From contig NZ_CP027707.1 in the NCBI RefSeq assembly GCF_003850345.1, positions 2,232,001 through 2,296,000 of the forward strand: a DNA stretch of 64,000 nt, written 5' to 3'. The DNA is from Pseudomonas chlororaphis subsp. piscium (GTDB taxonomy: Bacteria; Pseudomonadota; Gammaproteobacteria; Pseudomonadales; Pseudomonadaceae). The position numbers were made by a program, and so were the translations under genes. The notes beneath the pieces are model-generated. The model was not told the origin of the DNA and did no database searches. It saw nothing but the letters and a program-made list of their open reading frames with translations. Below, piece after piece: positions 1 through 59,601 of this stretch. The number at the start of each line of letters is the position of its first letter. Position 1 is the first letter of the stretch.

Positions 1-1230
1 GAAGAGGCTGAGCTGTCCAAGGATCTGGATCTGCCGGAAAGCAGCTTCGAAGGCCTTGAAGTTCCACCGCCGAGCGTCAAGCTCGCTCCAGCTCCAGCTC
101 CAGCTCCAGCTCCAGCTCCAGTCGTGGCGCCTGTGGTGGCCGCGGCACCGGTGGCTGCCGCAGTCGAGCATCCGGCCGATGTGCTGGATCAGGCCCAGTC
201 CCATATCAATGGCGGTCGCCTGAACCAGGCGGCGGCGATTTTGGAGGAAGCCGTCAAGCTGGAGCCGCAGCGTAGCGAGTTGCGCTTGAAACTGATGGAA
301 GTCTACGGTCATCAGGGCGATCGCAGCGCCTTTGTGGCTGAGGAGCGTCAGTTGGTGGCCAATGGCAAGAACCACGCTGAAGTCGAGCAGCTGAAAAGCC
401 GTTTCCCGGCGATGGCCGCGGTGGCGGCTGCGGGTCTCGGCGCGGCAGCTGCGGCGGCGGCGCTGGATGCTCAATACGTCAAGGAACTGCTGCTCGATGA
501 GCCACAGGAGCCTACGCCGGCACCGGCTGTCGACGACCTGGATACCGATTTCGATCTGAGCCTGGACGATCTGGAGGCGGCCTCTCCGGCGTCGCTGGCG
601 GCTCCGGCTGCTCCTGCTCAAGTTGAGCCCGAGCTGGACGAATTCCCGCTGGATGACGACCTGAGTTTCGAGTCGGTGTTGCAGCAGCAAACCGAAGCCA
701 AGGAAAGCCTGGACGACCTGTCGGATTTCGACCTGGATCTGGGAGAGGATCTGCCTGCCGCTGCGCAAGCCGATGAGGATTTCCTTCTCAGCCTGGATGA
801 CGACCTGAAGGATCTGCCGGCTGTCGAGGTGCCTACGGTGACCGAAGCTGCGCTCGACGATCTTGAACTGCCTGCGGACTTCGACTTGTCCCTGGCGGAC
901 GAGATGGATGCGCAGCCCGCTGCCAAGGATGCTTTCGCGTCCGAGCTGGACGATGTCAACGCCGAGCTGGATCGCTTGTCGCAAAGCCTCGAACAGCCGG
1001 CGCTGGCCGAGCCGACCTTTACCGCGGAAGACGCTGCGGGCAGTGCCGACGAAGGGGATTTCGATTTCCTTTCCGGCGCCGACGAAGTGGCGACCAAGCT
1101 CGATCTGGCCCAGGCCTACATCGACATGGGCGATAACGATGGCGCGCGGGATATTCTCGGCGAAGTCATCAGCGAAGGTAATGACGGTCAGAAAAGCGAA
1201 GCCAAGGAAATGCTCGCGCGTCTGGTCTGA
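1..1230 (+). CDS. fimV: FimV, C-terminal part (cut by window start)
   Basis: The frame is open from base 1, so this is the 3' part of a longer gene. FimV is an inner-membrane peptidoglycan-binding hub for type IV pili, polar organisation and cyclic-AMP signalling. The visible part has an Ala/Pro run, a TPR-like helical stretch (about residues 60-115), a long acidic Asp/Leu-rich linker, and the conserved FimV C-terminal domain at the end (VATKLDLAQAYIDMGDNDGA followed by RDILGEV). The N-terminal LysM and membrane segment lie outside the window. Position upstream of truA is the usual one in Pseudomonas. A hairpin terminator follows directly. Confidence 0.95.
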   Translation, partial: EEAELSKDLDLPESSFEGLEVPPPSVKLAPAPAPAPAPAPVVAPVVAAAPVAAAVEHPADVLDQAQSHINGGRLNQAAAILEEAVKLEPQRSELRLKLMEVYGHQGDRSAFVAEERQLVANGKNHAEVEQLKSRFPAMAAVAAAGLGAAAAAAALDAQYVKELLLDEPQEPTPAPAVDDLDTDFDLSLDDLEAASPASLAAPAAPAQVEPELDEFPLDDDLSFESVLQQQTEAKESLDDLSDFDLDLGEDLPAAAQADEDFLLSLDDDLKDLPAVEVPTVTEAALDDLELPADFDLSLADEMDAQPAAKDAFASELDDVNAELDRLSQSLEQPALAEPTFTAEDAAGSADEGDFDFLSGADEVATKLDLAQAYIDMGDNDGARDILGEVISEGNDGQKSEAKEMLARLV

Positions 1231-40088: not shown

Positions 40089-40179
40089 TTTTCAGCTTTT
40101 AAAATACTTCCATATTTCAAAAGCTTGCGATATATTCTTGAGCGCTTCGTTAAGAAGCGAACCCAGTAACACGCCTAGT

Positions 40180-40256
40180 CGGGGCGTAGCGCAGTCCGGT
40201 AGCGCACTAGCATGGGGTGCTAGGGGTCGAGTGTTCGAATCACTCCGTCCCGACCA
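40180..40256 (+). tRNA. tRNA-Pro(GGG), prophage attachment site
   Basis: A 77-base cloverleaf with acceptor CGGGGCG/CGTCCCG, anticodon loop ATGGGGT (GGG) and encoded CCA. A phage integrase gene begins 83 bases beyond, reading toward it, so its 3' half is the likely attL core. The partner att copy lies outside the window. Confidence 0.93.
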
Positions 40257-40270
40257 TATTTTTCAATGAC

Positions 40271-40342
40271 TTAGCCGCTTTCGAGCGGCTTTGTTGTTTG
40301 TGCCATAGTGACTTTTCGAGTGACCTTGGACTTTTTCTTCAT
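40271..40342 (-). CDS. Possible 23-residue peptide after the integrase
   Basis: ATG 40342 overlaps the integrase stop (ATGA) and has GGAGGGAGG upstream. The peptide MKKKSKVTRKVTMAQTTKPL is very basic. Its end runs through the terminator hairpin. Translation by coupling is possible, but there is no other support. Confidence 0.3.
   Translation of the reverse strand: MKKKSKVTRKVTMAQTTKPLESG
40273..40297 (+). terminator. Hairpin after tRNA-Pro
   Basis: AGCCGCT pairs perfectly with AGCGGCT around a TTCG tetraloop, followed by TTGTTG. It can end the tRNA transcript; it lies on the prophage side of the junction. Confidence 0.75.
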
Positions 40343-41523
40343 GCCTCCCTCCTTTTCAGAATCGTCAGCGCTGGTGCGCGCGAGTCGGTTGCTGATACCT
40401 TATTTGCTGCCGTAATGAGCTGATCCAGTTCCGCCGCCGAGTAGTGGCTGGTGATGCTGCCATTCTTGTGGCCGAGCAATGCTTTCCGATCCTCCTCAGT
40501 CACGCCTGCTGCACGTAGCCTTCTCCCAAAGGTGTGTTTCAGGTCGTGTATGCGGATTCTGGCAAAGCCGTCATGTGCCGGCCGCAAGAACTTCTCCTGC
40601 CATTTCTTCGCCGATCGGACCCGCGCCTTCTTCCAGGCCGAGTCATTCATGCGGTGAACCGTCGTTTCATTCCCCTCGCCATCTGGCTTGCCAAACGGGA
40701 ACACGTAGAGCTGATGATTGCCGCGCTGCTTCTCGATCACCGACTTGGCCACATCATTTAAAACGACCAGGCGCTCGTCTCGGTTCTTCACTCCAGACCT
40801 GGCGCTTCTTCCGCCAAATCCTGCTGGGATCAGGAACACACTCGTTCCCAGTTCCGGTACCGCAATCTCCCAATTCCACTGAAGCTTGCAAACTTCTTGC
40901 TCCCGACATCCCGTGTTGACCTTGAACAAGGCCATGGTCTGAAGGTGCGCCGGGAGCTCGGCGAACAGGATCGACTGCTCTTCCCATGAAAGCGGGTAGG
41001 GCTTTCGGCTGTTCGTCTTCTCATCCAGCAGAGAGATCATCGGCACAACATCGAGCAATGGCCGGCGCTCTTCATCCCGCCACTTCCGCGCACAAAGATT
41101 CAGCACTCGAATCACTCGTTGAAGCGCAATGTTCACCGTCCGGTTGGTGACAGGCTTACCCTCGGTCGGGTGCAGCTTCGACTGGATGTACGGGGCGAGC
41201 GCGTCATCATCGATATGGGTGAGCGGCATATCCCCAATGAATGGGTCCAGCTGCTCCATATAAGTAGCTGAAATGTGGATTGAGGCCTGGTCCTTTACTT
41301 CCAGCAGGAAGCGGGTCGCCGCCTCTCGCCATGTCCTGGTCCGCCGAACGCCATACACTTTCTGCTGGCGCAACTGCTCCAGCTTGTGGATCAGGTACTG
41401 CTCTGCTTCGGCGCGGATACTAGTGCCAGTACTCTCCTGAATTCGCTCTCCTCTGTACTTTTTGTCGATCTTCCAGATGCCGTTCGGCATTTGCTGGAGG
41501 CCTGTGATTGCTTTTTGGGCCAC
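40339..41523 (-). CDS. int: Phage integrase, tyrosine recombinase family
   Basis: A 394-residue protein. The N-terminal arm-binding part is about 1-60, the core-binding SAM-like domain about 70-165, and the catalytic domain about 185-370 with Arg in NTGCREQEV, the HDLKH box, LLGHKNGSITSHYS and the nucleophile Tyr. The box has Lys where Arg is usual, a variant I also remember in other Pseudomonas prophage integrases. It should recombine attP with tRNA-Pro. The 5' part overlaps the neighbouring gene by 133 bases. Confidence 0.95.
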   Translation of the reverse strand: MAQKAITGLQQMPNGIWKIDKKYRGERIQESTGTSIRAEAEQYLIHKLEQLRQQKVYGVRRTRTWREAATRFLLEVKDQASIHISATYMEQLDPFIGDMPLTHIDDDALAPYIQSKLHPTEGKPVTNRTVNIALQRVIRVLNLCARKWRDEERRPLLDVVPMISLLDEKTNSRKPYPLSWEEQSILFAELPAHLQTMALFKVNTGCREQEVCKLQWNWEIAVPELGTSVFLIPAGFGGRSARSGVKNRDERLVVLNDVAKSVIEKQRGNHQLYVFPFGKPDGEGNETTVHRMNDSAWKKARVRSAKKWQEKFLRPAHDGFARIRIHDLKHTFGRRLRAAGVTEEDRKALLGHKNGSITSHYSAAELDQLITAANKVSATDSRAPALTILKRREA

Positions 41524-41807: not shown

Positions 41808-42093
41808 GGGTATTTGTCTCCATGCCGCGCCTGGCGGCCGGCTTCAGGTTTATTCAGAATTGTGTTCGGGACATGCGGCGCTGCTATGGATAGAGTTGCG
41901 CCGCTCGGCCGGCCCAGTGCACTTGTAAAGGGGCGAATGCGCTGTGGCCGGTACGGGCGCCAGTTCAGATTTAGGTAGGTTTTTTTCGGAAAGGTCTGAT
42001 GGTTGCCGGCGTTGCGGGCGGCTATGGTTTCAGCGTTCGCCCAGTCCGTTGTCCTGGCTATCCGTCGACTGCGTTGCGGGCTGGGGCGAACTC

Positions 42094-42471: not shown

Positions 42472-42536
42472 CGCTTCGGCCCTCGGTAGATGTTCCAGCC
42501 AATGAAGAGCAGTGCGGGGAGGGAGAGCAGGATCAT
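42468..42536 (-). CDS. Tiny membrane peptide (22 residues)
   Basis: MILLSLPALLFIGWNIYRGP and KR: one hydrophobic helix with a basic end. ATGA overlaps join it to the genes on both sides, which supports translation although no strong ribosome site is seen. Confidence 0.5.
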   Translation of the reverse strand: MILLSLPALLFIGWNIYRGPKR

Positions 42537-42718
42537 GGCGCCACCTCCACATCGATATGCTGGATGTCTTCGATGTCGCTCAGGTCTTCCTCGTCGATCT
42601 GGCCGCCGGCGAGGTCGGGGAGCTTATGCAGTTGTTCGATCTCGTCCTCGTCCATGTCGGTCATGACCTTGCGGAACTTCACCACGGCATAGCCTGTAAG
42701 AATGACTGTTCGGCTCAT
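42533..42718 (-). CDS. Small acidic phage protein
   Basis: A 61-residue protein with an acidic C-terminal half (DMDEDEIEQLHKLPDLAGGQ, DEEDLSDIEDI). It overlaps both neighbours by 4 bases. Function unknown. Confidence 0.6.
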   Translation of the reverse strand: MSRTVILTGYAVVKFRKVMTDMDEDEIEQLHKLPDLAGGQIDEEDLSDIEDIQHIDVEVAP

Positions 42719-43077
42719 GGCGCCACCTGCTTGCGGTAGTCCTGGTCATGCAGGTACAGGGCAAGGTTCTGATGCCTGTCCTTCGCCTCGCACCCTTGAT
42801 ACCCCGCCAACTCATCAGCAAGGGTATCAATAGCACTTCTGCGCTCTTCTGCCGCGATCTGCTCGGGCGTGCGCGCCGGTCGGAACTCGACTTCCTCGAA
42901 GCTGCGAGACAACTCGTTACCCTCGCCATCGCGGAAGAAAGCACGTTTCTCGCCCAGGCAAAGGATCGTCGCCGGCCTCCACACAAGGTTCGTGTTTGGT
43001 CGCCGAGACTCGCACAGCGTCCCAACAGGCGGCAGGCCTTCGCCGTCCCAGTTCTGGATTTCATTTTCTTCAGGCAT
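42715..43077 (-). CDS. Phage protein of unknown function
   Basis: A 120-residue protein (MPEENEIQNWDGEGLPPVGT). The pattern W-DGEGLPPVG-CE, repeated in many phage genes of Pseudomonas, suggests a small SH3-like or KOW-like fold in residues 8-65; the rest is helical. Start supported by AAGGACAAGTC. First gene of the tightly coupled group 43077-42094. Confidence 0.65.
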   Translation of the reverse strand: MPEENEIQNWDGEGLPPVGTLCESRRPNTNLVWRPATILCLGEKRAFFRDGEGNELSRSFEEVEFRPARTPEQIAAEERRSAIDTLADELAGYQGCEAKDRHQNLALYLHDQDYRKQVAP

Positions 43078-43365
43078 GACTTGTCCTTGCCGCAGAAGCT
43101 GCGACTGACTTGAAGTGGGAGGGAGTAAGGCCAGACTTAGCAGTACATTCGGCTGAGCGAATCCCTACGGGATTAGTAGTTATTACATGACGCTGGTTAT
43201 AGTGAAGCTCTTACATTGCAGGGTAGGAGTTTTTTGAGTTTGAAATTAACTGGTCGGGCTTTATTTCTTTTTGATCTTATGAGTTACTTTCTCATGGCTT
43301 GAATTGATGTTTTTTATTGCGTATTTTCGCTGTAATGGATGTTTTAATAAAAAGGAGCTATCAAG

Positions 43366-44520
43366 ATGTCATCTCTTGCAAATGTAATTCGATTGAACTC
43401 ACAGAGGCTCACTGCCGCGCAGGCGGCGTATAAGGTTACCGTCGATTCGATTACTCGTTATATGGTGACTGTTTCAAAGCAGGAGTCGCCTGTTTGTATA
43501 AATCCGCTCCCTAATATATCTGATTTTAAGAAGGATTTACTTGAGGCAAGGAAGAGGGCGGAGAATTGGAATAACAAGGTTCTAGTGGATTTAATGAATG
43601 TTCCTGGTTATATACTTGAAGATAAAGGGCAAGTGGGTCAGGCTTTTGATGATGCGATAACAGCAACTAGGCAATTGATTGCTAATCCTAAAGATCATTA
43701 CGCTCCTGGTAATCTCAGTAAAAGTCTTAATCAGCTAAAGTATTTGTTTGGTAATGAGTCTAAAGAGGTTCAGCGTACGCTAGAGTTGTTGGAGGGTACA
43801 CAAAATGATTTGCCACAAATAGCGGCTCAGTTAAATGCTGCTGCTGCTGATTGTACCGTGGGAGTTAAATATGATCAGGGGCAGATTGATCAGCTTAAAA
43901 TGAGCATTTCTGATTTGGAGCAGGAAATAACTCGTCTAACGAAATCTATTATTGCTCTAGGCGGTGCTGAAACTGCCCTTATTGGTCTTGGTGCGGCTGC
44001 GGTCTCTGCTGCAGGTCTATTTGGTCTTGTAACGTGGATCGTTCTTGTGCCAGCTGTGGCTGTGGCTGGTTTTTATATTGCGCTTGATGGTTCGAAAATA
44101 AAATCGTGCAACAGCAAAATAGAAGAATTAACTAAAAATATGAGTGACTATACATTAGATATTTCAACTCTGCAGGTCACTTCTGGGATCTACACGGATC
44201 TGGCTGTTGAGTCAGAGGTTGCCAAGCAGAACCTATACAATGTTCAAGATGCTTGGAAAATTCTCGGTGGTGAGATAAGTAATGAAGTAGACGAAATTAA
44301 CCTTGCTTTGAGTAATAGTGAGTTTAGTAAATATAATTTGGTTTGCAACGATCTAGAAGAAGCTCAAAAAGAATGGCTTGCGATTTATAGTCAAGCAGAG
44401 TCAATGGATGTGCCGTTGGGGATTAGTGACGCTGATCTTGAATTCGGTATGTCTTCAGCGCAGGTGCAGTCGGCTGTCGAGGCGGCTAAGATGATTAGTA
44501 TTGACGAACTATTTATTTGA
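43366..44520 (+). CDS. Possible alpha-pore-forming toxin (HBL/XaxA-like)
   Basis: A 384-residue protein. Long amphipathic helices flank a central hydrophobic block (about 195-240: ALIGLGAAAVSAAGLFGLVT and WIVLVPAVAVAGFYIAL), with coiled coils before (about 165-195) and after (245-330). This layout is that of ClyA/HBL/XaxA-type toxins; no signal peptide is seen. The gene is much richer in AT than its neighbours, reads against the leftward operon, and has its own AAAAGGAGC site, so it looks like a cargo gene expressed in the lysogen. It could instead be a phage-exclusion membrane protein. Confidence 0.5.
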   Translation: MSSLANVIRLNSQRLTAAQAAYKVTVDSITRYMVTVSKQESPVCINPLPNISDFKKDLLEARKRAENWNNKVLVDLMNVPGYILEDKGQVGQAFDDAITATRQLIANPKDHYAPGNLSKSLNQLKYLFGNESKEVQRTLELLEGTQNDLPQIAAQLNAAAADCTVGVKYDQGQIDQLKMSISDLEQEITRLTKSIIALGGAETALIGLGAAAVSAAGLFGLVTWIVLVPAVAVAGFYIALDGSKIKSCNSKIEELTKNMSDYTLDISTLQVTSGIYTDLAVESEVAKQNLYNVQDAWKILGGEISNEVDEINLALSNSEFSKYNLVCNDLEEAQKEWLAIYSQAESMDVPLGISDADLEFGMSSAQVQSAVEAAKMISIDELFI

Positions 44521-44826
44521 TTAAAAGTCTGGATGGCCCGTCGCTTATTGTTGTTTTGATTCAATTGGCTCCGGGTCCGCTCAGCTACTTTTAGAAGGTG
44601 TTGCGCTCAGCGGTGATCCGGGCAAAACCCTCAGCGAGAACTACCGTAGGTTTGAGCATAACCTTACTCATGGCATCGATTCCCGGAAGTAACGTTCAGG
44701 TCGGACTGAAGGGCAGCTACTCGCTGTTCCAGGTGTTGGGTTTCTGTGGGCATGGGGAGTCCTTGCCGGGCGATGCCCGGGCAGTTGAGGTGCTACGATG
44801 GTGCCTTCCTCAAAGCGGGTAGGCCC
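44521..44826 (-). other. Gap after the toxin-like gene with two possible tiny genes
   Basis: About 300 bases. On the minus strand two overlapping small frames may be real: 44664-44753 (29 residues, MPTETQHLEQRVAALQSDLN, GGA upstream) and 44591-44671 (26 residues). Their ends overlap in the same style as other genes of this operon. I see no other support, and no terminator was found for the toxin-like gene. Confidence 0.3.
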
Positions 44827-45060
44827 ATGACAAAGCACGATATCTATGACGAGCTGGAAGGATTTCAGCTCTGGAACTACATGGAGTGCGAGAAAGACGA
44901 GGAAGGCCGAGAGACCTGGAGGATCAACGTCGAGGTGAAGCGCGGCGGGGAAGTGGTGGTGCCGGTTGTTGCTGGCGATCGCACCTTTACCGACCGGGGC
45001 TTGGCTCAGCAGGCCGGCCGGGCGCTTGGGGCGAAGTTGCTGGCCGAGCGTTCAGCGTGA
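44827..45060 (+). CDS. Small protein of unknown function
   Basis: A 77-residue protein (MTKHDIYDELEGFQLWNYME), reading against the leftward operon. AAAGCGGGTAGGCCC precedes ATG. Its end overlaps the end of the minus-strand gene 45052-45243 by 9 bases. No family recognised. Confidence 0.55.
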   Translation: MTKHDIYDELEGFQLWNYMECEKDEEGRETWRINVEVKRGGEVVVPVVAGDRTFTDRGLAQQAGRALGAKLLAERSA

Positions 45061-45243
45061 TAGCTCCTTGGCGCGCTTCTTCGACCAAGCCAGCACGTCG
45101 AGCACAACACTCTTGCTGAACATGCTGCGCTGGCGGTAGTAGTCGACGGCATCGCGACTTACAGTGAAGCACACCGATTCCTTAAACTTCATTTTGCGCA
45201 GCTCGTCGTGGACATTCTTCTCGATGAATTCATGAGGTGTCAT
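45052..45243 (-). CDS. Small protein of unknown function
   Basis: A 63-residue protein (MTPHEFIEKNVHDELRKMKF) with a helical look and a Lys/Arg-rich end. ATG overlaps the stop of the upstream gene (ATGA). Related small proteins are common in Pseudomonas phages; function unknown. Confidence 0.6.
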   Translation of the reverse strand: MTPHEFIEKNVHDELRKMKFKESVCFTVSRDAVDYYRQRSMFSKSVVLDVLAWSKKRAKELSR

Positions 45244-45536
45244 AGCGGCACCCATTCATTCTTTGCGTTGTAGTGCCCACGCCATTCGCCGAGCTTGAAG
45301 GTCAGGGTTCCAGGTGTGCACAGCCAGGCCCTGGTGATCGGCCCGCCGGTGAGCTGGTAGCTCCTTTTCAGGGCCCGCAGAACGCGCCTACGGATGCGAG
45401 GGCGCGACAGATCAATCCGCTTGATGCGGAGGGGGGGGTAGGCATTGTTGACCTCCAGGCGTGCGCCTGCCTCGCCGGCTGGCGTGTTGTGTGTTTGTGG
45501 GCTATTGATTGATGGCACGGCACGGGGCCGGAACAA
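45240..45536 (-). CDS. Phage protein of unknown function, start unsure
   Basis: Up to 98 residues; the conserved-looking part is the basic C-terminal half (IKRIDLSRPRIRRRVLRALK, TFKLGEWRGHYNAKNEWVPL). No ATG is in frame. I give the longest frame (TTG 45536), but a later start is possible. Coupled by ATGA to the next gene. Confidence 0.45.
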   Translation of the reverse strand: MFRPRAVPSINSPQTHNTPAGEAGARLEVNNAYPPLRIKRIDLSRPRIRRRVLRALKRSYQLTGGPITRAWLCTPGTLTFKLGEWRGHYNAKNEWVPL

Positions 45537-45548
45537 AGGAGTGTTCTG

Positions 45549-45776
45549 ATGAGCGAGATTCGGAAACTAACTCAGCGCGAGCTGTCCGTGGATCTTCAAA
45601 TGTCTGAGAGCGAGGTGGCGCTCTACATTGCGAGCAACGAACCCATGGCAGATGGGTCTGGGCATTGGGTGTATTTTTCCGTGAATGCTGAAATCCCTAG
45701 GAGCCTTCTTTCTCGGCTTGGGGTTGGTCACGATCGCCGACTCCCTTTGTATAAGTCTTCGTCAGCGCACCGTTGA
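45549..45776 (+). CDS. Small protein overlapping the reverse-transcriptase gene end
   Basis: A 75-residue protein with a very good site AAAGGAGTGTTCTG. The first 50 residues look natural (MSEIRKLTQRELSVDLQMSE, VYFSVNAEIP); the tail runs 80 bases into the RT gene on the other strand and looks less so. The DGR cassette may have cut an older gene here. Confidence 0.45.
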   Translation: MSEIRKLTQRELSVDLQMSESEVALYIASNEPMADGSGHWVYFSVNAEIPRSLLSRLGVGHDRRLPLYKSSSAHR

Positions 45777-46896
45777 CTGTATATCCTCGCTTTAGCACAG
45801 CCCGCGCCAGCGCGGCCCGGTCTTTCTGGCTGTGGCTGGCCTGGCCGAGCAAGCCGAAGTAGCTGTTTGCGGTCTCGCGCAGATCCTCGGCAGGTGCTGC
45901 AGCTGTGCGCTTCAGTGCCTGGGCAACTGATCGCTTCCGGGTAGTTCGCCTCCAGGGCTTGATCACGTGCCCGACGAAGTCCACGCCGCGGTCGACCGGT
46001 TGCAGGATCGTCTTCGTGGGGTTCAGCTTTGCGCCGAGCCTTGGCAAGAACTTCTCAACCTGAGTCAGCCACTCGTTCAGCTGCTGCGGCGATTCGTGCA
46101 GGAAGACGAAGTCGTCGACGTAGCGGATGTAGTAGCGCGCCTTGAGCGTGTGCTTTGCGAACTGGTCCAGCGCATCCAGGTACACATTCGCGAAGAACTG
46201 CGACGACAGGTTGCCGATCGGCAGGCCCAGGTGCGCAGGCTGCGCGGTGAGGCGCTTGTGCTGCGGCACCCGGTTGAACAGGTGCGCTGGGCTGCGGACT
46301 TCGTAGTTCTCGCGCGGGTCGTGCATCAGGATCTGCTCAGCCAGTGCCAGCCACCAAGGCTCGGTGATCCTGGCGGCCAGCTGCTCGAGCAGCACCTGCT
46401 TGTTGATCGCCACGAAGAAGTTGGCCAGGTCGCATTTCAGGTAGTAGACCGGCTTCGACCAGTTCTGGCTGGCGCTCCTTATCTTCGACTCAAGGCGCTT
46501 TGCGGCGTACAGCGTGCCGCGACCGGGGATACAAGCGCAGCTGTCCGCTATGAAGCTGCGCTCGATAGCGGGGCCGATGTGGTTGTACAGCAGGTGATGC
46601 ACGATCCGGTCGCGGAAGTCCGCGGCCCACACCTCGCGAGCCTTTGGCCGAGTCACGACGAAACAGATAGACCGGCCTGGCCGGTAAGTGCCGGCTATCA
46701 GGTCGTCGTAAAGCTCCAGCAGGTTGATCTCCATGTCCTGCTCGTATCGCCTGGCGCTTGCGGTGTTCCGCTTGCGCCGGCGGCAATCGTAGTAGGCCTG
46801 GACGAGATCCTCGAACTGGAAGGGAGCAACACTTGATTCTGCGGACAGGGCGCACCACGCGCTCGTTGTTCTTGTCGTTGTTGTTGAGCCAGCCAT
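45697..46896 (-). CDS. DGR reverse transcriptase
   Basis: A 399-residue protein from ATG 46896. Key parts: the catalytic Asp in LKCDLANFF (D156), the DGR-type motif LPIGNLSSQFFANVYLDALD (IGNLSSQ 227-233) and YVDD at 259-262. It lines up with the Bordetella phage BPP-1 RT (PIGSLTSQLFANVY, ARYMDD). It copies the template RNA with errors at adenines, giving cDNA for mutagenic homing into the VRs. The start is odd: ATG 46896 lies inside the TR, and the next in-frame ATG (46734) would remove the conserved N-terminal region. The frame stays open up to 47058. Confidence 0.93.
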   Translation of the reverse strand: MAGSTTTTRTTSAWCALSAESSVAPFQFEDLVQAYYDCRRRKRNTASARRYEQDMEINLLELYDDLIAGTYRPGRSICFVVTRPKAREVWAADFRDRIVHHLLYNHIGPAIERSFIADSCACIPGRGTLYAAKRLESKIRSASQNWSKPVYYLKCDLANFFVAINKQVLLEQLAARITEPWWLALAEQILMHDPRENYEVRSPAHLFNRVPQHKRLTAQPAHLGLPIGNLSSQFFANVYLDALDQFAKHTLKARYYIRYVDDFVFLHESPQQLNEWLTQVEKFLPRLGAKLNPTKTILQPVDRGVDFVGHVIKPWRRTTRKRSVAQALKRTAAAPAEDLRETANSYFGLLGQASHSQKDRAALARAVLKRGYTVNGALTKTYTKGVGDRDQPQAEKEGS

Positions 46897-46939
46897 CTTC
46901 GAAGTCCATGTTGTAGGCGTTGTTGGCTGAGTACTGCGA
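46837..46939 (-). repeat. DGR template repeat (TR)
   Basis: 103 bases, read on the minus strand, with ten AAC codons in the frame that matches the VRs (SQYSANNAYNMDFEDGWLNN and on). It matches VR1 (47529-47631) and VR2 (48234-48336) over its length. Inside the variable window all differences of VR2 and all but one of VR1 are at TR adenines. The 3' end, GAGCGCGTGGTGCGCCCTGT, is unchanged in all three copies and holds the expected IMH region. It overlaps the 5' end of the RT gene as drawn. Confidence 0.95.
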
Positions 46940-47108
46940 CCTGTCGTGCTATCTACGTCGCTCTGCCGAAGGCGATGCCGATCAGCAGAGAAACTGCGCG
47001 AGACCAGCCCGAACGCTTTAGATCGGCGGTATCTCTGATGCGCATGGCGGTGGCCCAAGGGCCAGCGGCACGACCAGATTCAGCGCACAGGCAGGAGAGC
47101 CGTAACCC

Positions 47109-47462
47109 TCAAGCAGCGGGCGCGGTTGCGGATTTCTTCCAGGCGTTCGCCTGTCGGCCTACGGAGGCCGTGAGCTTCATCGCTTTGGCATGTTGGCCGC
47201 GGCTGATGGCGCTGTTTTCGGATAACGCCCTGAACAGGTAGTTGAGCATCCAGATGTTTTCGATGACCTCGGTGAGATACGGGCGCTTGTCTCGAGCCAT
47301 ATTCGCTCTACCGATCAGCACCAGAACCTCAAGACACACATCCCGAATCTTGCCGCCGGCAACCTGTTTCAGGTCGCGCGGAATATGGCGAACCAAGCTG
47401 AGTGCCATGCCGAACAACTCTTCGGCCACCTTATGGATCTCTAACTGTGTATGCAGGGCCAT
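47109..47462 (-). CDS. avd: DGR accessory variability determinant (Avd-like)
   Basis: A 117-residue four-helix protein. The pattern VRHIPRDLKQVAGGKIRDVC, ANMARDKRPYLTEVIENIWM and ENSAISRGQHAKAMKLT matches Avd. Avd forms a basic pentamer that binds the RT and the template RNA and is needed for cDNA synthesis. GGAGG lies 5 bases before ATG. Position between target VR1 and TR/RT is the usual DGR order. Confidence 0.9.
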   Translation of the reverse strand: MALHTQLEIHKVAEELFGMALSLVRHIPRDLKQVAGGKIRDVCLEVLVLIGRANMARDKRPYLTEVIENIWMLNYLFRALSENSAISRGQHAKAMKLTASVGRQANAWKKSATAPAA

Positions 47463-47481
47463 CCTGGCCTCCTAAAAGCGA

Positions 47482-47518
47482 GGGCGCCGAGGCGCCCAGG
47501 AATGAATCATTGAATGAT
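47482..47518 (-). other. Hairpins downstream of VR1
   Basis: GGGCGC-CGAG-GCGCCC (47482-47497) and ATCATT-G-AATGAT (47506-47518) lie 10 to 47 bases after VR1. In BPP-1 a stem-loop just after VR helps homing; the same role is inferred. The first can also be a weak terminator. Confidence 0.5.
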
Positions 47519-48099
47519 CAGAAGTACTTTCTGCGGACAGGGCGCACCACGCGCTCGAGGTGCTTGGCGATGCCGTCGAGCCAGCCATCTTCGAAGTCCA
47601 TGAGGTAGGCGGAGTTGGCTGAGGCCTGCGAACTGGTCCAGTGGTAACGCTTGCTGAACACATCCGGGACAGTGATCTCCAGGAACTGTGCTTCCCGGCG
47701 GGCCATCAGGTAGAAGTCCTTTTTCCCATCACGCTCGAAGGCAGCGCAGAACTGAGCAGCCGGATATTCGTCATCGGCTCCAGCAAGGTCAGCGGTGTTC
47801 GACAGGCCGTCATGCGGGCTGTTGGCTCCATCGAGCTCATCACCATAGCCACCCCACTGGAGTTCCCTCTCCGCGTCAGCGCCGATTGGAACGATCAGGT
47901 AGTAGGGCTTGTCGCCGCCCGGGAACAGGCCACCGTTGACACCACCTTCACCTGGCCAGTATTCGCCAATCTCTGGAATGCCAGATGGCGCCGCGGCCGG
48001 CTTTACGGAAGCGCTCAACCCGGTGAGCACCTGCAGTGCAAGGGCGGCGTCGGGAGTGGTCAACATGGTCTCGCCGTGACTTACGGTAATCATTTGCAT
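47518..48099 (-). CDS. DGR target protein 1 with C-type-lectin-like variable domain
   Basis: A 193-residue protein. The C-terminal part (about 147-193, YHWTSSQASANSAYLMDFED ... VVRPVRRKYF) is the DGR C-type-lectin/DUF1566-like fold, with codons from VR1 at its end. No signal or membrane segment. It is a paralog of target 2 (GGVNGGLF, GGYGDELDG segments line up with GGIF, WGEYGQDV). GGAG precedes ATG 48099. Likely a ligand-binding protein whose binding face is varied; the ligand is unknown. Confidence 0.88.
   Translation of the reverse strand: MQMITVSHGETMLTTPDAALALQVLTGLSASVKPAAAPSGIPEIGEYWPGEGGVNGGLFPGGDKPYYLIVPIGADAERELQWGGYGDELDGANSPHDGLSNTADLAGADDEYPAAQFCAAFERDGKKDFYLMARREAQFLEITVPDVFSKRYHWTSSQASANSAYLMDFEDGWLDGIAKHLERVVRPVRRKYF
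47529..47631 (-). repeat. DGR variable repeat 1 (VR1)
   Basis: 103 bases, 14 differences from TR; 13 are at TR adenines, mostly in AAC codons (AAC to TCC, CTC, GAC, GGC, ATC, CAC, CTC; GAC to GCC). The other is the T-to-G of TAC to GCC near the 5' end. The codons in this window were N-rich in TR and now are S, L, D, G, I, A, H, L. Confidence 0.95.
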
Positions 48100-48163
48100 G
48101 GGATGCTCCAGTGCTCGGAATCAGGTTGCAGGCGGCCGGCACTGCCCGGCACGTTTCTGGTCT

Positions 48164-48182
48164 GAGCGTCGTCCTGACGCTC
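48164..48182 (-). other. Hairpin downstream of VR2
   Basis: GAGCGTC-N5-GACGCTC, a perfect 7-bp stem, about 50 bases after VR2, matching in place the hairpin after VR1. Role inferred as above. Confidence 0.4.
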
Positions 48183-48219
48183 CCGGAATCGCCTGCAAGA
48201 AAAGGAATGAAGAAGGGAA

Positions 48220-48696
48220 TTAGCGAATTGGAAGGCTGCGGACAGGGCGCACCACGCGCTCGTAGTTCTTGCCGCCGTTGTCGAGCCAGCCACCTCCGAA
48301 GACCATGAAGTAGGCGCGGTCGGCTGAGTACTGCGTGCTCATGTAGTGCCAACGATCCTCGCGTAGCGTTACCAGGCCGTCAGCCTTTGCCGCCATCAGC
48401 AGTTGGCCTTCCAGGCAGGAGGGGATGTGCGCGCCCAGCTCCAGGGCCTTGATAGCGATCTCGCTGCCGGCCTCGGCCATGGCCCGAGTGTTCGCCTCGC
48501 CGTCGCTGTAGCTCTTGGCGCCAGGAACGTCTTGGCCATACTCGCCCCAGGCGCCGACCAGCTCGTCGTCGAGCAGTACCAGGGCGCGTTCTTCGCCGTT
48601 GAGCCAGTAGCGTGTAGCGAAGATGCCGCCGGCGAGAGGTTGGCCGCGCTCAGGAAGGTCCGCGGCGGCGATGGTTTGCTGTGCAACTTGGGTCAT
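48220..48696 (-). CDS. DGR target protein 2 with C-type-lectin-like variable domain
   Basis: A 158-residue protein. N-terminal region with ARANT-like pattern (SDGEANTRAMAEAGSEIAIK), then HIPSCLEGQLLMAAKADGLV and the variable end WHYMSTQYSADRAYFMVFGG ... YERVVRPVRSLPIR. This follows the DUF1566-type fold common in DGR targets. GGAGAAACACA precedes ATG. It lies directly upstream of target 1 in the same operon. Confidence 0.88.
   Translation of the reverse strand: MTQVAQQTIAAADLPERGQPLAGGIFATRYWLNGEERALVLLDDELVGAWGEYGQDVPGAKSYSDGEANTRAMAEAGSEIAIKALELGAHIPSCLEGQLLMAAKADGLVTLREDRWHYMSTQYSADRAYFMVFGGGWLDNGGKNYERVVRPVRSLPIR
48234..48336 (-). repeat. DGR variable repeat 2 (VR2)
   Basis: Over the internal part it differs from TR at 13 positions, all adenines in TR (AAC to GAC, CGC, TTC, GAC, GGC, TAC; GAC to GTC, GGC; GAA to GGA; GAT to GGT). 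The edge bases also differ. The last 30 bases are the conserved IMH-type end. Confidence 0.95.
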
Positions 48697-48754
48697 TGTG
48701 TTTCTCCAGGTGTGCGCCGCCCTCCGGGACCGGATGCGCAGCGTGGGGTAGGGG

Positions 48755-49066
48755 TTATTCGTCGTGACAGATGCGAAGGGATTCGCGGTTGTAGGCGAGT
48801 TGCAATTTGCGCGACACGTTTTCGCTTATCGTGATTTCGTGTCGCGGAGCTGAAAGGAACTGAGCTGATCCAGCAGGGCCCAGGCCGTGCAGATGGTGAA
48901 TCATCAGCGTCATGGCCTCGCCCTGCTCCTCAATACCGTTCCAGTCCATCAGGTCGGCCAGGGCCTGGCGGGTTCCGGCCAGTGTATGGAGTCGCAATTC
49001 CTCTTCGCCGCGGCTCTTTCTCTTCGCCGCGGTCTTTGCTGAGCGGTCTTTCTGGGTGGCGGCCAT
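48755..49066 (-). CDS. Phage protein of unknown function
   Basis: A 103-residue protein with a Lys/Arg-rich front (MAATQKDRSAKTAAKRKSRG) and a helical middle. No family recognised; position after Erf-type genes suggests an early role. Confidence 0.55.
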   Translation of the reverse strand: MAATQKDRSAKTAAKRKSRGEEELRLHTLAGTRQALADLMDWNGIEEQGEAMTLMIHHLHGLGPAGSAQFLSAPRHEITISENVSRKLQLAYNRESLRICHDE

Positions 49067-49135
49067 GGCCTACCTCTTCTATTCCGCTGGCCGGCAGTGC
49101 CAGCCAGGTCTGTCGTTTACGTTGTTGGGTGCGAG

Positions 49136-49606
49136 CTATGCGGCGCATGAATCGACCTTTACCTGATGCCAGGCCCCGACCGCTTCGAAGATCCGCGCTG
49201 CATGATCCTCGTCTAGCGACATTGCCTCGGGAATGGCGATCCAGCCCGAAGCCACCATCTGGCTTTGGTTGGCTGAGTCGCGCAGCTCCTTGTAGCAATG
49301 CTCGATCACGTCCTCCAGGTGGTCGGAGAGGTAGACGCCTTCCGGAGCCACCTCAATCGACTTGCTGTAGCGGTCGCCGCGGGCATCGATACATAGAGCG
49401 CTGAGGTAGATCGTCCACCGGTGGGGGATGCCGCAGACGGCCTGGCCGATCTTCCCCGGCGCGATGTTCTTCAGCGACTTGTAATTGATCATGCCCTGGC
49501 GACCGCTCGGGTCGATGTTCACCACTGCGACGTGGTTGGTGCTGAGCAGGGCCCGGCAGGATCGTTCGATCCTGGCCTTGAGGTTGTGAGGCTTGCGCTT
49601 GCTCAT
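49136..49606 (-). CDS. Phage protein of unknown function
   Basis: A 156-residue basic-front protein (MSKRKPHNLKARIERSCRAL), rich in His and Cys later on. Coupled by ATGA overlap with the gene upstream. Not recognised as a known family. Confidence 0.6.
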   Translation of the reverse strand: MSKRKPHNLKARIERSCRALLSTNHVAVVNIDPSGRQGMINYKSLKNIAPGKIGQAVCGIPHRWTIYLSALCIDARGDRYSKSIEVAPEGVYLSDHLEDVIEHCYKELRDSANQSQMVASGWIAIPEAMSLDEDHAARIFEAVGAWHQVKVDSCAA

Positions 49607-49845
49607 AGTGAGTCCGCCATTTTTCGAAGGGCGCGGCGCTCGGCCAGGGTTAGCGGCCTTGGCTTGCGCTTGAGGACCGTTTCAGGGTCTATCCGGGTTG
49701 AGCGGGGAGGCGGCAGGGGATTTCGCGGTAGGCTTTTCAGTTGGGCGATCTGGCCGCCGGCCGCCAGGAACTGGGCGACTTGTGCCGATATCTCCTCGGC
49801 GCTTTGCCGCTGCCGCTCCACTAGGTTGAGGTGGTTGCTGATCAT
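49603..49845 (-). CDS. Small phage protein of unknown function
   Basis: An 80-residue protein (MISNHLNLVERQRQSAEEIS) with a Pro/Arg-rich middle. It overlaps both neighbours by 4 bases, so it is inside the recombination operon. Confidence 0.6.
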   Translation of the reverse strand: MISNHLNLVERQRQSAEEISAQVAQFLAAGGQIAQLKSLPRNPLPPPRSTRIDPETVLKRKPRPLTLAERRALRKMADSL

Positions 49846-50486
49846 GCTGCCTTACTCCTCAGCTTGGCCTCGTACTGATCGACCAGCAGCTTGAACTGCC
49901 ACAGGTCTTCCTCGAGCTTTTCGATGTAGTCCTCGTCGCGCTTAAACTCCTGCCACCAGAGCTGGCGGCCGACTGGCTTAAGGTCTGGGCAGTACATCCC
50001 GATATGCCACCACTTGCGGCCGGTGATCCACATACAGCCTTGCACTTGGTCCATGATGTCGCTGGCGTCATTGTCGATGTGGAAGGATCGCAGCTTTTCC
50101 GGCGCCAAGAAGCATTTGTACTCAGACCCGCCATCCTCGCCAATGAAGCCGTCGGCACTGGCGCCGAACACGCCATCATCGGTTTTAACCAATCCAACCT
50201 GAGTGACGATCAGCCCTGTCTGGATTTCGTGCTCCATGCGGGCCTCGGGCTCCAGTTCGTGGCCACGCTTCATCTGCCAGGTTTCGAATCCACCATCCAG
50301 CGGGGAGCCGCTGATACGCTCAACGGCCAGACGGAAGGCATAGTCCAAGGCCTTGGCGGTCGGCTCGCCCTTGTTGGGGCCTGACTTCAGCCGGGCGCGG
50401 GCGTCGCTGAACATGCTTGCTGTGATGACGCCGGCTCTTTCCTGATGCCAGGCGTCTGATCCTTGAGAGCAGTGAACGATGATCAT
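49842..50486 (-). CDS. YqaJ-type phage exonuclease
   Basis: A 214-residue lambda-exonuclease-like protein. The PD-(D/E)XK core shows as SDARARLKSGPNKGE, the GHELEPEARMEHE Glu, and SADGFIGEDGGSEYKC with the catalytic D-X-E-X-K. It resects DNA 5' to 3' so that the annealase Erf can act. It overlaps the Erf gene (ATGA). Confidence 0.9.
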   Translation of the reverse strand: MIIVHCSQGSDAWHQERAGVITASMFSDARARLKSGPNKGEPTAKALDYAFRLAVERISGSPLDGGFETWQMKRGHELEPEARMEHEIQTGLIVTQVGLVKTDDGVFGASADGFIGEDGGSEYKCFLAPEKLRSFHIDNDASDIMDQVQGCMWITGRKWWHIGMYCPDLKPVGRQLWWQEFKRDEDYIEKLEEDLWQFKLLVDQYEAKLRSKAA

Positions 50487-51292
50487 TGGTCGGCTCCTTC
50501 TTGAGCGGGGGCGCTAAGCTGCTGCCCGCGAGTGGTGACCGCAACCTTCAATGCTTCATAGAGGTCGGTTGCCGTTTTTTTGTCGGTAGCTTTCAGGTCC
50601 TGGGAGGCCTGGACGCCTGCTTGCCAGATAGCCGTCAGAGCCTCTTTCGACTCGGCGGCGTAGGCCTTTGGTATCCACTCGTTTAGGAGCTCGCCAAGAC
50701 CCTGTGTTTGATCTCCATTCCCGTCGTTATCCTCATTGGTCAGGACGACATTGAAGATCATCATCGTCAGATAGCGCCGGGCGTAGCTGTATGTCGAGCC
50801 GCTGGCGTGAACGCCTGTCTTGTTCACGCTGCCCTTGATGCCGGCCGAGTCAATCGGAAGATCGACGTGGTACTGCTTCGTGTGGCCAGCCTCATGCATG
50901 CAGTCGCATACCGTGCGGATGTGGCCGGCCAGCGGACTGTCTCCAGTGCCGAATGACAGTGAGAAGCCGTAAGCCGTGTAGACCGGCGATATTTTCCGGT
51001 CAATCGATTCAAGCGCGGCATAAGCGCTGTTCGTCTGTGCGTTGAACTTGTCGCGGAATACGGGGCCGATCTCGGCCTGAGCTCTAACCATCGCCGCGTT
51101 GAATGCTGCTGCAGCAGTACGATCGGTGTGCCGTTCGTACATCTCCATCATCTTCTGCATCTTGTCCGCGTCGAAGGCGGGGTCAGTGGCGGCACGCTGA
51201 ATCATGGTCAGCATTGCGGTTGACTCGCTGGTGATCGCCGGGGAGGCGATCTGCCGAGCGTCAGATTTCTCGGCAAGTGCTGTATTGCTCAT
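50483..51292 (-). CDS. erf: ERF family single-strand annealing protein
   Basis: A 269-residue protein from ATG 51292. ERF pattern: FNAAMVRAQAEIGPVFRDKF ... NSAYAALESIDRKISPVYTA and YARRYLTMMIFNVV. It anneals complementary single strands in phage recombination; together with the YqaJ exonuclease it forms a Red-like pair. The C-terminal tail is variable. The longer frame to 51310 is unlikely. Confidence 0.92.
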   Translation of the reverse strand: MSNTALAEKSDARQIASPAITSESTAMLTMIQRAATDPAFDADKMQKMMEMYERHTDRTAAAAFNAAMVRAQAEIGPVFRDKFNAQTNSAYAALESIDRKISPVYTAYGFSLSFGTGDSPLAGHIRTVCDCMHEAGHTKQYHVDLPIDSAGIKGSVNKTGVHASGSTYSYARRYLTMMIFNVVLTNEDNDGNGDQTQGLGELLNEWIPKAYAAESKEALTAIWQAGVQASQDLKATDKKTATDLYEALKVAVTTRGQQLSAPAQEGADQ

Positions 51293-51299
51293 GGCGACC

Positions 51300-52409
51300 T
51301 CAATAGGCAATCGAAACGTTCGGGATCTGGCGCTTGGCGATCAGCGTGATTGCCTGCTTGGCGCATTCCTCGGTCATGCCGCCAGCCACGAAGGCTGCCA
51401 GGGCGGCGCGGTTGATCTTGGCTCTGTGTGCCGTATCGGCCTCGCGGGCTTCCTGCTGGCGCAGGATCTCGGCGGCGGCGTCGTTCTGGCGCTTGACCTC
51501 ATCCAGTCGCGCCTGCTCCACCGCAGCGGCTTGCCGTTCGATGCCTTCCAGTCGCTCGCGCTCAGCCCTCTGTTCGGCCTCAACCTGCTCGCGCTTTGCC
51601 TGTTCAGCGCGGCGCTCAGCTTCTGCCGCCTGAAGCTTAAGGTCGTTCTCGCGCCTCTCGGCAGCCTCCTGCTCATCGCGAACGCGCTGAGCTTCTGCAT
51701 CTCGAGCGCGCTGGGCCTTTTCTTCTGCTTCCTGCGTAGCGCGCTCAGCGGCTTCCCGAGCGATCTGGTCCTCACGATCTTTCTTGTCGCGCATTTCCTT
51801 CTCCTCGCGGAGGCGCGCCAACTCAGCCTGCTCTGCCTCATGCCGGGCTCGCTCGGCGTGCAGGCCGCGCAGCGTGATCAGCGCTTGATCCTTGGCCTGG
51901 GCCGCCTCGGGCAAGAACTCCTCCCAGGAGTCGTCGAGAGCCAGCAGTTCCAGGTCAGCGATGACCTGGGCGACATGGGCGGCTGTCGGCAGCTCTTCGA
52001 ACTTGGCCAAGGCCTTGATCGCCTCGATGCCGTCGTTGTGCTTGTCGACCCTGGCATCTTCGGCGTCCTGCCAATCATCAAGCGGCTTCCTAACTTCTTT
52101 TTGCCATGCTTCAAGCGTGTCCCATACGCGCTTACGCTCGGCGTCGATCAGCTTTGGAATCTCCTTTTGCTTCGCGGAGATCTCTTTGCCTACCGCCTCA
52201 AGCGCAGTCTTCGACTTCGCGATCTGGTGAGCCATCGACGCGTATGCCTCACGCCCCTTTCTGGTCTTGAGATCAGGAAGTACCTTTTTAAACTCATCGA
52301 CCTTTGCTCGAACTTGATCAAGCCAAGGGTCAAGGCCGTTAGGCGTGCTATAAACGGCGAGGGCGGTTTCTTGCGGCGGCACGACGGCCAGTTCGGTTTG
52401 TGCGGACAC
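51300..52409 (-). CDS. Long coiled-coil phage protein
   Basis: A 369-residue protein. Residues about 180-330 are almost continuous charged coiled coil (EREAE/ARLREEKEMRDKKDRED), the N-terminal part is helical with DAERKRVWDTLEAWQKEV, and a short C-terminal domain (AALAAFVAGGMTEECAKQAI) follows. Homologs I recall sit next to Erf/RecT genes in phages. Function unknown. The repeated codons produce a long false frame on the other strand. Confidence 0.8.
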   Translation of the reverse strand: MSAQTELAVVPPQETALAVYSTPNGLDPWLDQVRAKVDEFKKVLPDLKTRKGREAYASMAHQIAKSKTALEAVGKEISAKQKEIPKLIDAERKRVWDTLEAWQKEVRKPLDDWQDAEDARVDKHNDGIEAIKALAKFEELPTAAHVAQVIADLELLALDDSWEEFLPEAAQAKDQALITLRGLHAERARHEAEQAELARLREEKEMRDKKDREDQIAREAAERATQEAEEKAQRARDAEAQRVRDEQEAAERRENDLKLQAAEAERRAEQAKREQVEAEQRAERERLEGIERQAAAVEQARLDEVKRQNDAAAEILRQQEAREADTAHRAKINRAALAAFVAGGMTEECAKQAITLIAKRQIPNVSIAY

Positions 52410-52453
52410 GAGCGAATCCTTGCCGCGACGTGCGCAGCACTTGAAGGAGTTGA

Positions 52454-53514: not shown

Positions 53515-53536
53515 GGTCGCCTCCAGGGTGGCGGGG

Positions 53537-53968: not shown

Positions 53969-53988
53969 GGCGACCTCCAGTGTTTGGG

Positions 53989-55913: not shown

Positions 55914-55924
55914 ATTTATAGGCA

Positions 55925-55950: not shown

Positions 55951-55953
55951 CAT

Positions 55954-58944: not shown

Positions 58945-59601
58945 CTAGTAGAACTTCTGCAGGGCCTGCACCACGACGCCCACAATCCGGCAGTTCTCGT
59001 CGACCGGCTCGATCGGGTAGCCAGGATTCAGCGGTTTCAAGAACAGTCGCCCGCCATCGCTCACCAGCTTCTTGAACGTTGCTTCATTACTGTCCGGTAG
59101 CTTGGCCACGACCAATTTGCCAGGGGCGACCTCGACCTCGGTGTCGACCAGGATCAGCGTTCCTTCAGTAATGCTCTGGCCGGCTGGAGCAGTCATCGAG
59201 TCGCCTTTGACCTTCAGCCAGAACGCCGGGCCTTTCGAGTCATATTCGGAAAACTCGTAGGTGTCAGAGATTCCCGCGGGGTAGGGCTCTACAGCTTCGG
59301 ACCAGGCTCCGGCGGCGACCCAGCTGATAACAGGGTAGCGGAAGGACTTGGAGGGCTGGACAGCCATAGTGACATTCGACTCACGCGCCTCTTGCTCTTC
59401 TCCCTCGCCAATCGCAAGCCATTCAGCTCTGAATCCGGTCGCTTTCGCTAATGCGTAAAGGTTTTCTGGCCTGAGGCTTTTGCTCTCGCCAGTAATCCAT
59501 TGAGTAACAGCAGAATTCGCAACGCCGCACAGCGATGCAATTTCGCCTTTCTTTTTTCCGCTGAGCTCAATGGCTCGGGCGATACGTTCGTGTCTTTCCA
59601 T
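58945..59601 (-). CDS. cI: CI-type phage repressor with S24 peptidase domain
   Basis: A 218-residue protein. N-terminal helix-turn-helix (about 16-36, KKGEIASLCGVANSAVTQWI), linker, then the LexA-like domain with the AG cleavage site (VAAGAW about residue 97), catalytic Ser in KGDSM and Lys in ATFKKL. RecA-triggered self-cleavage would induce the prophage. It should bind the 14-bp sites at OL and OR. The ATG has no ribosome site and lies 7 bases after a TAAAAT -10. Confidence 0.93.
   Translation of the reverse strand: MERHERIARAIELSGKKKGEIASLCGVANSAVTQWITGESKSLRPENLYALAKATGFRAEWLAIGEGEEQEARESNVTMAVQPSKSFRYPVISWVAAGAWSEAVEPYPAGISDTYEFSEYDSKGPAFWLKVKGDSMTAPAGQSITEGTLILVDTEVEVAPGKLVVAKLPDSNEATFKKLVSDGGRLFLKPLNPGYPIEPVDENCRIVGVVVQALQKFY

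Follow-up and report, generated by a model that had tools for sequence, protein, structure and literature searches.

A predicted diversity-generating retroelement with two early target genes in a Pseudomonas chlororaphis prophage

Diversity-generating retroelements (DGRs) of phages are mostly regarded as tools for altering host attachment. The DGR of BPP-1 (brt, bbp7, TR, mtd) combines a reverse transcriptase (RT), a template repeat (TR), a variable repeat (VR) at the end of the target gene and a hairpin behind the VR; its bbp7 is the accessory variability determinant (Avd). The same parts are found in a 64,000-nt stretch of the genome of Pseudomonas chlororaphis subsp. piscium (assembly GCF_003850345.1, contig NZ_CP027707.1, positions 2,232,001 to 2,296,000 of the forward strand), hereafter called the window, in whose coordinates all positions are given. 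Positions 45697-48696 of its minus strand very probably hold a complete DGR within the early operon of a prophage, in which the RT together with Avd would reverse-transcribe an RNA composed of a structured leader, the RT-15 RNA of Rfam, and the TR, making errors at adenines. Two paralogous C-type-lectin genes carry the VRs at their 3' ends, and both would be rewritten as the resulting complementary DNA (cDNA) took the place of these repeats.

The RTs of BPP-1 and the window belong to one clade; the two elements differ, however, in their build. BPP-1 has one annotated target, a tail protein, whereas the window has two targets among the early genes. The structured RNA of BPP-1 (Phage_DGR, RF03022) lies 3' of the TR in the 144-nt gap between TR and brt, whereas in the family of the window element RT-15 stands 5' of the TR, which is separated from the RT gene by a junction of 2-23 nt. 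The hairpin of BPP-1 follows 4 nt past the VR and there is no octamer array, whereas in the window such an array lies between VR and hairpin. Judged from its sequence, the variant departs from BPP-1 in the class of its targets, the order of its RNA, the overlap of TR and RT and the element behind the VR.

Closer relatives are the DGRs of the phages Magia (Burkholderia), Cruim01 (P. syringae), Haboob, VB_PaD_phPA-G and LPPA56 (P. aeruginosa), SC_8_H2H8_2017 (Pseudomonas) and QDWS (Shewanella), which belong to the same family. Their RTs are 64-85% identical, a TR is present and two tandem VRs lie upstream; in the annotated relatives (Cruim01, Haboob, VB_PaD_phPA-G, LPPA56, QDWS and Magia), the cassette is located near integrase, repressor or recombination genes. 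These seven DGRs were annotated singly, with targets that are mostly hypothetical, and SC_8_H2H8_2017 carries no annotation there. The genome announcement of Magia mentions its DGR (PMC7883833). At the level of titles and abstracts, no publication describing the features of the family together was found, and the family may have been described before.

Layout of the cassette and variation at template adenines

In the order of transcription, the cassette comprises target 1, target 2, avd, the RT-15 RNA, the TR and the RT. TR, VR1 and VR2 are the three copies of a 119-nt repeat family within it. The features, all on the minus strand, are:

48220..48696, minus: target 1, 158 aa; fold as in target 2 minus the N-terminal beta-beta-alpha part; C-terminal VR
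48236..48337, minus: VR1, in target 1, from the repeat family and alignment with the TR
48205..48228, minus: octamer array 3' of VR1, ATTCGCTA ATTCCCTT CTTCATTC, model score 15.9 bits
48164..48182, minus: hairpin 3' of VR1, 7-bp stem and 5-nt loop, at +53
47518..48099, minus: target 2, 193 aa; C-type lectin (DUF1566/Lcl-like) fold; C-terminal VR
47531..47632, minus: VR2, in target 2, from the repeat family and alignment with the TR
47500..47523, minus: octamer array 3' of VR2, TTCTGATC ATTCAATG ATTCATTC, model score 13.6 bits
47482..47497, minus: hairpin 3' of VR2, 6-bp GC stem and 4-nt loop, at +33
47109..47462, minus: avd, accessory variability determinant; Pfam bAvd 51.9 bits (cut-off 40), PHROG 'Avd protein of DGR' 3.7e-26
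46937..47125, minus: RT-15 structured RNA (Rfam RF03018), cmscan 179.5 bits (gathering score 82), E 3.2e-44; its 3' end is the TR start
46839..46940, minus: TR core, repeat family D1, aligned with both VRs
45697..46896, minus: DGR RT, conserved part 45697-46830; likely start ATG 46896 within the TR, alternative in-frame TTG 47058
45697-46830, minus: RT profile matches, RVT_1 1.5e-18 and phrog_1423 7.2e-117

The initial annotation, made from the letters alone, had proposed a complete prophage DGR on the minus strand with an RT carrying the motifs IGNLSSQ and YVDD, an Avd-like protein, one TR and two VR-bearing target genes, none of them obviously broken. All of these parts could be located. Both motifs are present in the translation of the RT, and Avd is recognized by the bAvd match above its cut-off and by the PHROG match, while the NCBIfam model DivGenRetAVD reaches 46.3 bits and thus stays below its cut-off of 80. 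The frames are intact, and RT, Avd, RNA, VR ends, arrays and hairpins are all there. As read from these parts, the window element is a complete DGR, that is, a known kind of element in an unusual variant.

Alignment of the TR with both VRs (103 nt each, with 31 TR adenines) placed the mismatches mostly at TR adenines, namely 14 of 16 in VR1 (hypergeometric P 3.1e-7) and 13 of 15 in VR2 (P 1.3e-6). Outside adenines, three mismatches fall at the 5' edge, and VR2 has one interior T>G. When the host genome (7.07 Mb, one contig) was searched with its own TR, no further VR was found; three of the 20 matches were strong, namely TR, VR1 and VR2, and the others had E values of at least 0.4.

The family shows the same bias. 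RT scans gave 144 loci in genomes and 463 in viral contigs, of which 80 each were kept together with seven phage loci and the window; 167 of these 168 RT loci were analysed, one being dropped for an incomplete start, and TR/VR matches that were above E 1e-15, gapped or reversed were left out. Among 349 TR/VR pairs, 4543 of 10895 TR adenines are replaced (41.7%) compared with 275 of 25318 other bases (1.1%), and 144 of these 275 replacements fall on a single position at the 5' edge. The hosts, where named, are mostly Pseudomonas and Burkholderiales, avd is present in 166 of the 167 loci and both tandem targets, judged by position, in 154. In 36 of the 126 loci whose upstream sequence was long enough, a third VR was found; where VRs occur upstream of both targets, they are on the strand of the RT and precede it by 3.2-8.2 kb. 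Within the genus of the host, 17 of 199 genomes, host included, carry a family RT at E 1e-40, so the family is common and material for tests exists. A search for VRs elsewhere in 39 records with a single foreign TR as query (that of locus L020) was insensitive, and its misses mean little: it recovered nothing from LPPA56 and no more than the TR from the record of the window prophage. None of its matches was farther than about 9.2 kb from a TR match, with the exception of G005, where a second cluster resembling the TR sits at the contig end. Two genomes, G225 and G231, have two family RT loci each, which would be a natural place for cross-talk between cassettes.

Between close relatives the VRs vary, almost solely at TR adenines, rather than being identical throughout. 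In four sister pairs, whose RTs differ by 0, 8, 10 and 18 per 1000 nt, the VR differences amount to 99 at TR adenines and one elsewhere. The loci L117 and L120 are 99.9% identical across 6.2 kb; the VR of target 2 shows 14 changes at adenine sites, one other change and a 3-nt insertion, and that of target 1 is unchanged. Locus L022 was left out of the sister pairs since in this contig two prophages of a single genome, L136 and L145, have likely been collapsed; two other close pairs, with greater RT divergence (e.g. L155/L157 and L103/L127) stand outside the count of four. Other close pairs have identical VRs, several of them likely being one genome in two collections, and L139 and L138 differ only at two non-adenine bases of VR2, which create a stop in L138. 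Since the VR differences of the sister pairs are almost confined to TR adenines, the DGR lineage is taken to be active.

For the window strain itself, the comparison with the nearest relative, L097, is informative. The TR is identical in both; VR1 differs at nine adenines and no other base and VR2 at 14 adenines and two other bases, while the 330 nt 5' of VR1 differ at 45 positions (the flank of target 2 was out of register, 173/330, and was not used). A clean VR1 beside a drifted flank is as expected of recent homing. The element could instead be a relic in the window strain, with VRs diversified in the past and an RT that is now unused, and the only identical copy that was found (L096) likely comes from the same genome, which would fit a relic. 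With an undamaged cassette and a VR1 free of non-adenine changes, however, this is improbable, and we infer that the element is active in the window strain as well. In L171, another locus of the family, where the RT is at 9001, the two upstream VRs share 98% and 95% identity with the TR, as if barely mutated or newly copied.

Reverse transcriptase, template RNA and elements behind the variable repeats

The RT was assigned by phylogeny and profiles. In a tree, 11 family RTs and five phage DGR RTs form one group (support 100/99), apart from seven group II and four retron RTs drawn from relatives' genomes; some end branches of these outgroups are long, which is a caveat. In agreement with the tree, the RT stays below the cut-off of the retron model St85 (47.3 bits, cut-off 235) and of the group II intron maturase-type RT model (101 bits, cut-off 300). 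The best sequence match in the PDB is 8ub7 (6.9e-36), presumably the BPP-1 enzyme, and its length of 328 is that of BPP-1 brt.

The start of the RT had been described as unclear in the initial annotation, and indeed the frame continues into the TR, where the nearest canonical start is the ATG at 46896. In all 150 distinct loci, the RT frame is open throughout the 66 nt before the conserved RT start. The junctions between TR and RT measure 2, 5, 8, 11, 14, 17, 20 or 23 nt and are thus 2 mod 3 in 148 of the 148 loci with a clear motif. The frame is kept across junction indels, which would otherwise be hard to explain and points to translation through the junction. An in-frame ATG is present in the TR or the junction in 142 of the 150 loci. 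On the other side of the balance, the remaining eight have no such ATG; of two loci with a poor motif, outside the 148 and with junctions of 21 and 11 nt, the former would break the frame; and of the 67 loci whose frame closes within the TR, just 25 have no canonical start before +39 other than the TR ATG. RT translation nevertheless appears to start at the ATG in the TR, so that the TR would both template mutagenesis and, read in another frame, begin the RT gene. Such overlaps are not new: TR/RT overlap, in DiGReF structural group 3, and DGRs with several VRs, among them that of Pseudomonas fluorescens WH6, were tabulated in 2012 (PMC3521204). The overlap in DiGReF rests on annotated open reading frames, however, whereas in the window family the frame is conserved across junction indels.

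The RNA in front of the TR is known in Rfam by little more than a name, since the entry line of RF03018 gives only "RT-15 RNA". The window RNA matches the model over its full length (1-192 of 192). RT-15 was found directly 5' of the TR, ending at the TR start, in eight of eight loci scanned (the window and seven of seven other family loci), and compensated changes on both sides were seen at least once for 22 of the 34 predicted pairs (62 sequences, of which the row of L090 is unlike the family). The RT-14 RNA of BalMu-1 is located between TR and RT, 3' of the TR, as is the RNA of BPP-1. At its gathering score, Phage_DGR was absent from positions 40000-60000 of the window and from seven family loci, and Bise, ZX4290 and ACA1 gave no match to a DGR-type Rfam family. 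Compared with the 2-23 nt of the window family, RT similarity begins at a median of 174.5 nt from the TR in one other DGR group (22 VRs, from 26 of 31 loci) and at a median of 140 nt in a second (43 VRs, from 65 of 80 loci). An RNA hidden in the 5' end of the RT gene was considered and rejected, as synonymous diversity is not lowered there, bar one 10-codon dip in one of two sets.

Taken together, RT-15 appears to provide the template RNA with its ribonucleoprotein scaffold, a part that falls to the 3' spacer in BPP-1. It is less likely, though worth considering, that RT-15 is a regulatory leader of the RT mRNA outside the template RNA, and that priming occurs from RT-gene sequence 3' of the TR, like the spacer of BPP-1. 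cDNA synthesis must begin 3' of the TR, where the Rfam DGR RNA of BPP-1 also lies, and codons 41-50 of the RT have the lowest synonymous diversity (0.35) in the Pseudomonas set. Codons 1-40 are no lower than the rest, however (0.58-0.74 compared with 0.40-0.95 past codon 50), the Burkholderiales set has no dip, and both the position of RT-15 at the TR start and its covarying helices speak for a part in the template RNA. An exception within the family is the RT locus L090, for which the alignment shows neither a VR nor anything resembling RT-15. If RT-15 is the scaffold, this Rfam family gains a likely role, and a natural rearrangement of a DGR RNA becomes available for comparison with BPP-1. 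At title and abstract level, no publication was found that presents RT-15 as the leader 5' of a DGR template.

Behind the VRs, the base agreement at a lag of eight is 0.417 in 265 distinct stretches, compared with 0.284 expected from composition and with 0.255 at +60..105 and 0.245 after the TR as controls; agreement at a lag of four is equally high (0.415). A model of three octamers with the consensus [A/C]TT[C/T]AnT[C/A] begins 7 nt past the VR in 197 of 265 cases. It scores above 8 bits in 251 of 265 regions downstream of VRs, in none of 265 at +60..105 and in none of 125 after the TR. A limitation is that this model was fitted to the very VR sequences that it scores, which does not apply to the lag-8 autocorrelation. 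An earlier 7-mer regular expression was too strict and matched 51/128, 48/112 and 25/41, compared with 1, 0 and 0 at +60..120. Hairpins follow the VRs of the family in 99/139, 41/121 and 13/42 cases, whereas 3.1, 2.7 and 0.8 would be expected. The BPP-1-type hairpin is described in PMC3240598 as a GC-rich stem of 7-10 bp with a 4-nt loop, 4-34 nt behind the VR.

Since the TR has no array, it is proposed that the array helps to mark the recipient; array and hairpin together may mark the VR and spare the TR. As a short cis element, the array could then account for the distinction between VR and TR. No such array was found in BPP-1, nor in Bise, Vibrio ZX4290, BalMu-1 and ACA1 (best score 1.2). 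A separate periodicity of 7-8 nt is seen in the Vibrio/BalMu group of DGRs, and a weak one in the Bise group; in the Vibrio/BalMu-type loci L249-L281, an iterated motif of 7-8 nt (ATCTGAA-like) lies between VR and hairpin, and arrays between VR and hairpin may be more general among DGRs. The conserved single-stranded UGAAUCUGG of RT-15 includes UGAAU, which is complementary to ATTCA of the octamer; these are five bases and the match is possibly due to chance.

Early location and possible function of the target proteins

The prophage proposed in the initial annotation was delimited by an exact 51-bp att repeat whose copies are 53,144 bp apart, giving a 53.1-kb prophage, and integrase, repressor, replication, head and tail genes were identified in it. 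The features that frame the cassette within the window are:

40210..40260, plus: attL, inside tRNA-Pro (GGG) 40180-40256; attR is an identical 51-bp copy outside the window
40339..41523, minus: tyrosine integrase (PF00589, phrog_1), which places the DGR at the integrase end of the prophage
49842-50486, minus: YqaJ exonuclease, an early recombination gene upstream of the targets on the same strand
50483-51310, minus: Erf annealing protein, an early recombination gene upstream of the targets on the same strand
58945..59601, minus: CI-like repressor (phrog_4, 1.4e-52), at the head of the early region

The genes for an O-like replication protein, portal, major head protein, tape measure, lambda-J-like central tail fibre protein and tail fibre lie on the strand opposite to the DGR. 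The cassette thus occupies an early block that presumably corresponds to the place of int-exo in lambda. The whole-genome search with the TR placed both VRs in this early block and none in the lambda-J-like tail protein or the tail fibre gene.

The targets 1, 2 and 3 of the family are paralogous, 347 of 351 falling into one cluster by their constant parts. The fold of both window targets is that of Lcl/DUF1566 C-type-lectin domains, and their best structural match is the C-terminal domain of Legionella Lcl. Lcl has collagen-like or secretion parts, whereas the window targets are free-standing without them. Hydropathy is 1.19 and 0.86 for the two targets. DUF1566 is listed as a frequent target domain of DGRs in human microbiomes (PMC4159848).

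Where these proteins act can be judged from their location and build. As the target genes are among the early and not the tail genes, they likely act inside the cell, and we lean, by a narrow preference, towards early, non-virion proteins that bind factors of the host or of rival phages, which would amount to a changing set of intracellular binders. A rather less likely reading is that the targets, although made early, act outside the cell as receptor-binding proteins of the virion or the cell surface, as they do in classic DGR phages. The characterised targets of phage DGRs are generally receptor-binding proteins, and Lcl-like and DUF1566 domains are often secreted adhesins, which leaves room for a role on the virion or the surface. 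Some viral fold matches of the targets are tail-fibre-like, which, like the match with Lcl, favours the outside; in addition, hydropathy exceeds 1.6 in 20 of 157 relatives of target 2 and in five of 152 of target 1. The DGR and the tail genes are more than 25 kb apart on the prophage map; in the circular phage genome, however, the tail fibre gene is merely about 10 kb away, across the joined att site. In Roux et al. 2021 (PMC8144416), viral DGR targets are classed as structural or unknown and are mostly tail proteins for the viral clades 1, 4 and 6. An intracellular role is favoured by gene position: the targets are encoded in the early block on the minus strand, flanked by integrase and recombination genes, and the head and tail genes run on the other strand, whereas the DGRs of BPP-1, Bise, Vibrio ZX4290 and ACA1 adjoin tail genes. 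Furthermore, the targets have no shaft domain at 158 and 193 aa, and relatives occur near the repressor gene in phages without a DGR RT. Targets in an early operon make it testable whether phages diversify intracellular proteins too.

Target genes in phages without a DGR reverse transcriptase

Relatives of target 2 were found in 20 phage records, 15 of which (13 distinct phages) are outside the records that match the DGR RT; at E 1e-5, the latter were six Pseudomonas phage records. The carriers without RT are Aurca01, Medea1, U9, U7, PAN70 (a partial genome), PMG1, phi_D3 and FBPa42 as well as the jumbo phages Callisto, 30-3, 30-2, Paride and Deifobo, which we take to be virulent. The occurrence of target genes in phages without a DGR RT indicates that the gene travels apart from the cassette. 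In PMG1, FBPa42 and phi_D3, the target relatives and the repressor gene are one to three small genes apart. Cruim01 has, besides its cassette, a third target gene with VR at 43578-44177 (L184 4079-4678), about 1.7 kb from the repressor gene, and the target relative of the D3-like PMG1 is in a like place without a DGR RT.

The VRs of these free-standing genes were compared with the TR of a relative, the counts below being changed adenine sites plus other sites. Few other sites are changed in Aurca01 (14+0 in target 1 and 16+0), Medea1 (18+0 and 12+2) and FBPa42 (17 of 33 adenine sites and one of 70 others), and in U9 and U7 the counts are 12+3 and 16+3 each. More are changed in PMG1 and phi_D3 (15+5), Callisto (14+6), 30-3 (14+7), Paride and Deifobo (20+12), 30-2 (20+14) and PAN70 (10 of 20 adenine sites and 10 of 41 others). 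The bacterial genomes G173 (15+1) and G126 (14+7) also have a VR and no family RT at E 1e-40. Older free-standing copies drift, and in several of them the array is lost or shortened.

Two explanations of the adenine changes in these phages were weighed. The VRs were probably inherited by recombination from DGR-bearing ancestors without any rewriting in trans. In an alignment of the loci L009, L176 and L177, Cruim01, Aurca01 and Medea1 match until target 2 ends; for Cruim01 and Aurca01 the match resumes at the 3' end of the RT gene, which looks like an exchange of the block of RT, avd and TR at the VR end. The drift at non-adenine sites, of which 12 of 70 are changed in Paride, seven in 30-3, six in Callisto and five in PMG1, and the lost or shortened arrays also fit inheritance. 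The VRs of FBPa42, Aurca01 target 1 and G173, however, look freshly copied, and the latter two retain full arrays, while that of FBPa42 is shortened. For such fresh free-standing VRs, rewriting in trans is possible.

It is tempting to speculate that the element is a hypermutation cassette for intracellular early proteins, providing heritable C-type-lectin binders against host defences or rival phages. Its targets would be portable and marked by arrays, would have reached phages including jumbo phages, and might be rewritten in trans by a resident prophage where the arrays are intact, from a template RNA with a structured 5' part. As a whole, this scenario is tentative and its probability is well below even.

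Between the integrase and the DGR, a gene of 384 aa (43366-44520, plus strand) shows weak similarity to alpha-pore-forming toxins (MakA, NheC and xenorhabdolysin A), all matches being far below the NCBIfam cut-offs.

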